NCBI GenBank assembly: GCA_011524785.1 | Contig: WTJQ01000510.1 | Location: 1 to 11,483 of the forward strand | Length of the DNA: 11,483 bases | Direction of reading: 5' to 3' | From: Planctomycetota bacterium | GTDB lineage: Bacteria > Planctomycetota > UBA1135 > GCA-002686595 | Part shown: in pieces, positions 5,641-6,976 of the stretch | Position numbering within the stretch: the first letter of the stretch is position 1 | Layout: each line of letters starts with the position of its first letter | Notes under the pieces: model-generated | What the model was told of the DNA's origin: nothing | The model's database searches: none | The model's input: the letters and a program-made list of their open reading frames with translations, nothing else | Translations under genes and position numbers: made by a program

Positions 5641-6591
5641 TCACCCACGCAGCAGGGCGGCACTCCACGCCGTGACCAGGAGTCCGAGGGTCCCCATCGC
5701 CGCGGCCATCTGACCGCGGGCGCCCAGGCGCTCCGGCGCGCGAACGGCGCCCGCCGCCACGCCGGCCGCAAGGCCGACCACGAAGCCGAACACGTGCGCG
5801 CCGATGTCGACGTCGCCTGGTCCCTCCTCGCCGCCGCCCATGCCCAGGTAGCCGAGCAGGACCAGGGCGCCCAGCAGGGGGGCGAGGCGTCGAAGCGCCG
5901 ACAGCGCGAGCTCGCGCCGGCGGAGCCACTCGAAGCCGGCCTGCACGCCGAGCAGGGCGAAGACCGCCGTCGAGGCGCCCACGGACAGGTGGTCGGGGCC
6001 CGCGGCCAGGGCGTTCACGAGGTTGCCTCCCGCGCCCGCCACCAGGGCGAGCAGCCAGGCCAGGCCGGAGCCGAGGGTGTGGCTGGCCAGGACGCCGAAG
6101 AGGGAGCCGAACACGACGTTGCCCGCCAGGTGCGCGAGGTCGACGTGCAGGGTCAAGGCCGTGGCGAGACGCTCGACCTCTCCTGAGAGCACGCGCCCGC
6201 TGTCCATGCGCCCGGCGGTCCACCAGTTGATCCCCGCGAGCCCGAACTGGCCGATCGGGAAGAGGCCGATCACGACGGCCGCGTAGGCGAGCGCGCCTCG
6301 CCGGCCGTTGCTGCGGGGGACGAAGCGCGGACGGGGGGGCGGCCACGCCGCGTTCTCCTCCGCGTAGTCCGCGAGCTCGGCCTGAGCGCGCGCTCCGTGC
6401 GCGGCTGGGACCAGCAGCTGCCAGCCGTGCCCGCCTCCCACCAGCTCGTGGGGGACCCCTGCAGCGCGCAGCACCAGCGCGGCCTCGCGGGCGCGCGCGC
6501 GGTGTCGGGTGGCGAGCACCGCGAGCGCCGGGGGCATGGGCTGCTCGGCCCCTGCGCCATGGCCGGCGCCCTGCATGTCGGGAGCGTTCAT
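5641..6591 (-). CDS. Rhomboid-family intramembrane serine protease with N-terminal DUF2007-like domain
   Basis: This 316-residue integral membrane protein would cleave membrane-spanning substrates. Residues about 20-83 form a small soluble alpha/beta domain (LAVLATRHRARAREAALVLR..., WQLLVPAAHGARAQAELA) resembling the PF09413/DUF2007 signal-transducing domain. The rhomboid core then spans about 98-316 with roughly six or seven hydrophobic segments. H154 and N158 (HLAGN) correspond to the oxyanion-side His and Asn, S207 in VGASTAVF is the nucleophile, and H266 in GAHVFGFVVG is its partner. Numbering is close to E. coli GlpG (H150, N154, S201, H254). The frame is open to 7380 upstream, but that extension is Arg/Pro/Ser-rich noise across another gene, so ATG 6591 is chosen; M6 or M19 are alternatives. 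It lies 43 bp after the in-frame-UGA gene and 31 bp before the sulfatase-like gene, probably in one transcript. Confidence 0.93.
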   Translation of the reverse strand: MNAPDMQGAGHGAGAEQPMPPALAVLATRHRARAREAALVLRAAGVPHELVGGGHGWQLLVPAAHGARAQAELADYAEENAAWPPPRPRFVPRSNGRRGALAYAAVVIGLFPIGQFGLAGINWWTAGRMDSGRVLSGEVERLATALTLHVDLAHLAGNVVFGSLFGVLASHTLGSGLAWLLALVAGAGGNLVNALAAGPDHLSVGASTAVFALLGVQAGFEWLRRRELALSALRRLAPLLGALVLLGYLGMGGGEEGPGDVDIGAHVFGFVVGLAAGVAAGAVRAPERLGARGQMAAAMGTLGLLVTAWSAALLRG

Positions 6592-6634: not shown

Positions 6635-6976
6635 TCAGAAGAGGCGCAGGCCGCAGCCGGGGCAGCGGCCCTGACCCCGCGGGATCGTGCCGAGGCAGGC
6701 CGGGCACTCGCTCGCGTCGGCGTCGAGGTCGACGACGGCATCGGCGGCCCGCCGCTCCTCGTCGCCCATCTCCCGGCGCTCGGCCTCGGCGAGCAGCGCT
6801 GCAGCCCGCTGTGCGTCCGGGCCCGCGACCGCGAGCCAGAGCTTGGGGCTTCACGAGGTGGTCTTGCAGCCCGGGGGGGCCACGAGCCGGGCCTCCAGCC
6901 CCTCGCGCTCGAGGAGGGCCCGGGAGCGCTTGAGGGTGCCCATGGGCCCCTCCGCAACGACGACGGTGTCCTGCAT
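6635..6976 (-). CDS. Putative selenoprotein: small alpha/beta (DUF2007/DUF3343-like) domain plus zinc ribbon, Sec at codon 42 (in-frame TGA)
   Basis: Reading from ATG at 6976 gives 113 residues if the TGA at 6853-6851 is decoded. Residues 1-62 look like a beta-alpha-beta-beta-alpha domain: VVVAEGPMGTLKRSRALLE, then LEARLVAPPGCKTTS, then U42, then SPKLWLAVAGPDAQRAAALL. A charged helix follows (63-78). A zinc ribbon ends the protein: CPAC at 91-94 and CPGC at 105-108, with GLRLF before the stop. DUF3343 (putative Se/S carrier-like) proteins carry a conserved Cys after the P-x-P region, and U42 falls about there; this is from memory. C37 could pair with U42. The next in-frame ATG (codon 70) would give only the zinc ribbon. 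A GGUC-loop hairpin follows the TGA. AAGGA sits 1 nt before the ATG, an unusually close Shine-Dalgarno. Alternatives are a fresh nonsense mutation or a base error. It heads the unit with the rhomboid and sulfatase-like genes. Confidence 0.72.
6817..6840 (-). promoter_or_regulatory. Candidate bacterial SECIS hairpin inside the in-frame-UGA gene
   Basis: In the mRNA, 6837-6831 (GGCUCGC) pairs with 6826-6820 (GCGGGCC) in 7 bp with one U-G wobble, closing the four-base loop GGUC (6830-6827). After one U/C mismatch, two further pairs (6839-6818 C-G and 6840-6817 U-G) extend the stem. Twenty nucleotides separate the UGA from the loop, within the spacing used for bacterial SECIS elements (about 16-37 nt), and the loop begins with G. 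The E. coli fdhF SECIS also presents GGUC in its apical loop, about 18 nt after its UGA, where the G and U contact SelB. No bulged U like that of fdhF is obvious. Hairpins are common in 70% GC sequence, so the weight comes from position plus loop sequence. Confidence 0.6.

Follow-up and report, generated by a model that had tools for sequence, protein, structure and literature searches.

The 11,483-nucleotide planctomycete contig analyzed here as a whole (the window) carries on its reverse strand what we judge, with a probability of about 95%, to be the gene of a genuine selenocysteine (Sec)-containing protein that is common to many related planctomycetes. The preliminary description had proposed a selenoprotein candidate at this locus, and that reading is now supported by a UGA retained at the same codon in 101 of 112 genomes, by homologues with Cys at the corresponding position, by a SECIS hairpin past the UGA, and by the presence of selA, selB, selC and selD. 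The Sec assignment is the strong part of the interpretation, and it would add a wide selenoprotein lineage that gene callers reduce to its post-UGA piece and that NCBI's own model scores below its cut-off.

The 113-codon reading frame (6976-6638, reverse strand) is interrupted solely by the TGA at 6853-6851 and is closed by a second TGA, its own terminator; the coordinates, the interruption at codon 42, the stop at 6637-6635 and the terminal CPAC/CPGC zinc ribbon are all as first described (Table 1). Because just five in-frame codons separate the preceding stop from the ATG, a longer N-terminus in the same frame is impossible. Coding on both sides of the TGA, claimed initially from the letters of the window, is borne out by comparison with five same-genus genomes: dN lies below dS upstream of the TGA (0.38-0.47 against 0.82-1.12) as well as downstream of it with the LAVA stretch excluded (about 0.33 against 1.32-1.69), and purifying selection thus acts on both flanks.

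Table 1. Features of the selenoprotein locus and its neighbor, in window coordinates
Feature	Position	Strand	Details
Predicted selenoprotein gene	6635..6976	(-)	113 codons + stop; ATG 6976-6974, stop 6637-6635
In-frame TGA, codon 42, predicted selenocysteine	6851..6853	(-)	Codon in the 112 loci counted: TGA 101, TGG 8, Cys 3
DUF2007-like beta-alpha-beta-beta-alpha domain, residues 3-69	6770..6970	(-)	AlphaFold2; relative P0070
Putative bacterial SECIS apical hairpin, GGCUCGC-GGUC-GCGGGCC	6820..6837	(-)	Loop GGUC 6830-6827
CTC GCG GTC GCG (LAVA)	6824..6835	(-)	Unchanged in 90 of the 96 parsed TGA loci and in all 8 TGG loci
C-terminal zinc ribbon, CPAC-x10-CPGC (C91, C94, C105, C108)	6653..6706	(-)	Four Cys invariant in 30 aligned relatives
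Rhomboid protease gene, downstream of the selenoprotein gene	5641..6591	(-)	PF01694

Conservation of the interrupting codon was followed from close relatives outward. Among the window's own genome (3.43 Mb in 652 contigs, 79% complete) and 60 relatives, 40 of the 61 match the protein, 38 of them with one in-frame TGA, well beyond what chance would give, and a profile of the family matches 108 of the 154 genomes of the order. The relatives that bear a name are mostly metagenome-assembled genomes of Planctomycetota, and we accordingly take the window to be planctomycete DNA. The codon-42 counts are based on 112 loci, one per genome, comprising 104 of these 108 order genomes and eight from a scan of the phylum; a regular expression parsed 105 of them, and the other seven were read by eye (five TGA, two Cys). 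The matching order genomes that were left unread hold the ribbonless paralogue only (G299), a gene cut by a contig end, with TGA in the profile scan (G302), or weak hits confined to the ribbon (G008, G262), and six anammox-family Cys loci (L047-L050, L052, L069) together with L071 stand outside the count. The TGA column is invariant in 30 aligned loci, and the TGA form is spread over several families, extending to more remote groups of the phylum as well. An assembly error or a strain-specific mutation, both raised initially as possible sources of the TGA, is excluded by its recurrence in 101 of the 112 genomes.

Homologues with either TGA or Cys at position 42, which the preliminary description had suggested looking for, were both found. 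Five anammox-group loci, L047-L050 and L052 (a label taken from what their close homologues are called), have Cys at the column, as do L053, L054 and the database proteins P0001, P0002, P0003, P0006 and P0007; L071 has neither Sec nor Cys. The converse concern, that homologues might carry unrelated residues at this site, is answered only in part: the deep relatives have Cys, but the eight TGG genomes and 13 of the 29 database proteins studied have Trp at the column, P0048 has His, and ten further database proteins (P0004, P0005, P0008-P0015) show Ser, Pro or Ala in the gapless column, with a Cys placed one or two positions earlier, near but not at the site. Judging from these homologues, the residue at the Sec position is replaceable. 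The usual flanks in the planctomycete branch are G/S-U-G/S. The proposal that C37, five residues before the TGA, is a conserved partner does not hold, as a Cys lies within seven residues upstream of Sec in only 30 of the 96 parsed TGA loci, the window included, and within eight residues downstream in none of the 96.

The predicted hairpin places the start of its GGUC loop 20 nt past the UGA, and its upper part consists of the LAVA-coding bases CTCGCGGTCGCG. In the 105 machine-parsed loci, among them those with TGG or TGC, five codons separate UGA from LAVA in 101 and six in the other four (L098, L099, L100, L243), where the SECIS accordingly lies 3 nt farther off. The LAVA bases are the same in 90 of the 96 parsed TGA loci, whereas outside this stretch 42 of these TGA genes use a mixture of codons for Ala, Leu and Val (GCG 204 of 547, CTC 128 of 328, GTC 64 of 168), and codon choice also varies in the conserved zinc ribbon. 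As far as this codon pattern tells, it is the RNA hairpin and not the protein that freezes the silent sites of LAVA, a clear case of an RNA signal fixing the codons of a conserved stretch.

Hairpin statistics were computed on the 92 of the 96 parsed TGA loci with five-codon spacing. All 92 sequences have GGUC as their apical loop, and the stem pairs, counted from loop to base, form in 92, 91, 92, 89, 79, 82 and 69 of them. Altogether 92.2% of stem cells pair, 37 of the cells being altered on both sides; this percentage was reached by none of 500 shuffles, nor was the covariation score (0.230 versus 0.125 shuffled), and shifting the partner by one to three columns lowers pairing to 27-48%. Two further covariation measures are weak: three pairs changed on both sides, equaled by 56 of the 500 shuffles, and 11 further pair types, equaled by 44 of 500. 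In four genomes, CTT..GCA combines two silent changes that turn a C-G into a U-A pair and are therefore compensatory. Three pairs below the loop stands an invariant U, which faces A in 62, G in 27, C in two and U in one of the 92 sequences. The third pair from the hairpin base, beside this conserved U, is unpaired in 13 of the 92, and 11 of these 13 carry the 3' arm GCGAAG (L056, L060, L062-L064, L224, L228, L234-L237) in place of GCGAG or GCGGG; the extra A looks like a bulged base beside the conserved U. A scan of Rfam returned no SECIS model match. The element resembles the Escherichia coli fdhF SECIS in its GGUC apical loop, in the loop-to-UGA distance (18 nt in fdhF, 20 nt here) and in the U three pairs below the loop, and differs in the state of that U, which is bulged in fdhF but here lies opposite A or G in 89 of the 92 sequences. 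The sequence that we take to be the fdhF element matches 5,368 of 5,426 genomes, and the three matches listed are annotated as fdhF.

The machinery for Sec insertion is encoded in the same genome. The preliminary description had named selA, selB, selC and selD as genes to look for, and all four are present, with scores of 72.8 bits for tRNA-Sec (anticodon UCA), 366.5 bits for selB together with a neighboring piece, 463.7 bits for selA and 338.6 bits for selD, which contains a single in-frame TGA, so that the possible lack of selB or selC is not the case. In the relatives, selA is found in 59 of 61 genomes, the TGA form lacking a selA hit in G026 and G035, which are 67% and 80% complete; in the phylum sample it scores above the cut-off in all 14 genomes in which the TGA form was read, versus 135 of 199 overall. 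One genome (G052, L136) has a selD with no in-frame stop, though it keeps the TGA form of the zinc-ribbon gene; the other 31 selD matches in its family have one TGA each.

The eight TGG loci belong to the family of G045, in which 30 of 34 genomes match and eight (G045, G256, G257, G258, G259, G260, G275 and G278) have TGG at the column; all eight genes were examined as DNA, and the SECIS motif CTC GCG GTC GCG is exact in every one. On both of the trees used, parsimony needs four codon changes from a TGA root, one to TGC and three involving TGG, several node supports being weak; we read this as TGG having arisen three times, and the protein tree accommodates two origins plus one reversal at equal cost. 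These relatives have probably lost Sec by ordinary point mutation, and their SECIS would be either a remnant or a signal maintained by frequent interconversion of UGA and UGG. One transition suffices to turn UGA into UGG, a change that has occurred two or three times, the His in P0048 fits a residue drifting once Sec is lost, the frozen stretch of just four codons is a small target, and tRNA-Sec has the anticodon UCA wherever it was found. Less easily accommodated is the TGG clade of six genomes, in which the four LAVA columns have no silent change against 29 in 24 other fourfold columns (resampling p 0.004, Poisson 0.008, Fisher 0.010), whereas the nearby TGC relative, G255, has already altered one of its four LAVA codons and thereby broken a stem pair.

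This contrast leaves room for a more tentative interpretation, which we consider rather unlikely, namely that after two or three UGA-to-UGG changes the SECIS is still under selection through its continued use by SelB and tRNA-Sec(UCA) wobble-decodes the UGG, which would yield a mixture of Sec and Trp forms without truncation. In E. coli, according to Xu et al. (2013; PMC3834832), 75Se is incorporated at UGG in a SECIS-dependent manner, and a CCA anticodon lowered this incorporation, tRNA-Sec with UCA being the form that read UGG. Since E. coli inserts Sec at a UGG placed before a SECIS (PMC3834832), the TGG relatives are candidates for a natural Sec/Trp site. The two arrangements share the UGG directly before the SECIS and, in six of the eight TGG genomes, the tRNA-Sec(UCA); they differ in that the E. 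coli case was engineered and gave good yields only with selA, selB and selC overexpressed (PMC3834832), whereas the planctomycete arrangement is natural and known from sequence. If correct, a SECIS would be directing Sec to a tryptophan codon in nature by means of the ordinary tRNA-Sec, in genomes that retain an in-frame UGA in selD, and the TGG relatives would form a natural test of SECIS-directed Sec at a sense codon with an unchanged tRNA, which we found shown only in the engineered system (PMC3834832).

Two broader changes of the code were considered for the TGG genomes and set aside. That UGG has generally replaced UGA as the Sec codon is not supported, selD in all eight keeping one in-frame TGA somewhere within its match. 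A CCA-anticodon tRNA-Sec was not found: the anticodon is UCA in six of the eight TGG genomes, no tRNA-Sec being found in G275 and G278, and, although none was detected in five of the family's 34 genomes, the other 29 and the window's own genome all have UCA.

The same Trp residues could be taken to mean that UGA itself is decoded as tryptophan, by a local reassignment or near-cognate read-through. The eight TGG genomes and the Trp-bearing database proteins speak for this reading, which we nevertheless regard as highly improbable: the deeper relatives have Cys, the Sec genes occur together with a SECIS, the window gene itself terminates with TGA, and parsimony gives TGA as the root state from which TGG derives. 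An equally improbable division into two genes, a 41-residue peptide that stops at the TGA followed by a separate protein containing the zinc ribbon, is what gene callers make of the locus, with many C-terminal fragments of 55-79 residues in the databases and with entries P0016, P0022, P0028 and P0034 that begin just past the Sec codon and contain the post-UGA part only (as the preliminary description had foreseen in writing that standard callers would split or miss the gene), and it founders on the near-constant spacing from UGA to LAVA, the frozen silent sites past the TGA, the predicted fold running continuously through the site, and the Cys and Trp homologues, which are single proteins.

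That fold agrees with the alpha/beta domain initially proposed to run through the TGA: the AlphaFold2 model (mean pLDDT 89.2) spans the site and places Sec in a long loop, residues 33-45, between strands 2 and 3. In Pfam the window protein itself matches nothing at E values up to 10, falling short of the PF09413 gathering score and leaving DUF3343 unmatched. P0070, however, a relative lacking Sec, passes the PF09413 cut-off (28.2 versus 25.7) and aligns with the family over the same domain, and the window domain fits a DUF2007-like assignment. Of the two affinities first suggested, DUF3343-like or DUF2007-like, the latter therefore stands through P0070, and the former found no support in the Pfam search. 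What the window protein shares with DUF2007 (PF09413, putative prokaryotic signal transducing protein) is the domain aligned via P0070; what sets it apart is its predicted Sec, the fused ribbon and the lack of a Pfam hit of its own.

The sole NCBIfam match is NF049953.1, 'zinc ribbon-containing (seleno)protein DG' (68.8 bits, E 5e-19), in which residues 3-112 cover model positions 58-171 of 172. This score lies below the curated cut-off of 130 bits, which is reached by none of the 199 phylum genomes, although all 30 members of the alignment (A1) match the model at E values up to 1. Since the match begins at model position 58, the window protein lacks the N-terminal ribbon of the model (positions 1-57), which is present in the Cys-form relatives L047-L050 and L052; L047 and L049 match model positions 4-171, and the Sec/Cys loop and C-terminal ribbon of the window protein align with both. 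According to a 2025 report on deep-Sep, 'hypothetical protein DG' was predicted in Desulfosediminicola (PMC12013277), and a table in a 2026 review lists protein DG with the motif GUxG (PMC13188914). The planctomycete proteins thus share with (seleno)protein DG their homology, the Sec/Cys loop and the C-terminal zinc ribbon, and depart from it in the residues around Sec, where G/S-U-G/S is usual instead of the GUxG tabled there, as well as, in the window, in the missing N-terminal ribbon. Lacking the first ribbon and scoring below the cut-off, the planctomycete branch is not a DG member by NCBI's own test, and we call it a putative single-ribbon sister lineage of protein DG. The earlier statement that such a protein was not one recognized as described consequently needs qualifying: the branch does fall below the DG cut-off, but its homology to protein DG and NF049953 means that it is not wholly undescribed.

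No function is known to us for any protein of the family. In the model that we favor for synthesis, which draws on conservation, the SECIS and the machinery, SelB bound to the hairpin just past codon 42 would bring Sec-tRNA-Sec(UCA) to the UGA, and the ribosome would then read through to the zinc ribbon. The product would be a small protein in which an alpha/beta domain of DUF2007-like type, carrying Sec in the loop that links strands 2 and 3, is fused to the ribbon. As the domain has no conserved partner Cys, Sec would most likely act as a lone surface nucleophile or as a metal or thiol ligand, and the protein might serve as a one-Sec redox or ligand sensor-adaptor whose ribbon contacts a partner; in the window's lineage, this partner may be the rhomboid protease encoded alongside. 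These functional proposals, from the lone Sec to the rhomboid partner, are speculative, and we think them more probably wrong than right.

A rhomboid homologue, detected by tblastn with the window's rhomboid, lies directly downstream in nine of 61 neighborhood loci (L010-L015, L018, L020, L183), and an IspA homologue lies upstream in two (L015, L183), several of the 61 coming from the same genomes and their flanks differing in length. By eye, the first ~90 residues of the rhomboid resemble a DUF2007-type domain, whereas Pfam gives rhomboid only. The window also contains a homologue of BrxC-type monothiol bacilliredoxin (PF11009) at 367-717 on the reverse strand. Short ribbonless relatives, with an in-frame TGA in the same loop followed by LAVA, occur in L254 (near 384, reverse strand), L256 (near 414, forward strand) and L257 (near 411, forward strand), and G018, G301 and G025 probably hold a second, ribbonless selenoprotein; weak hits resembling this form were also seen in G297-G300.
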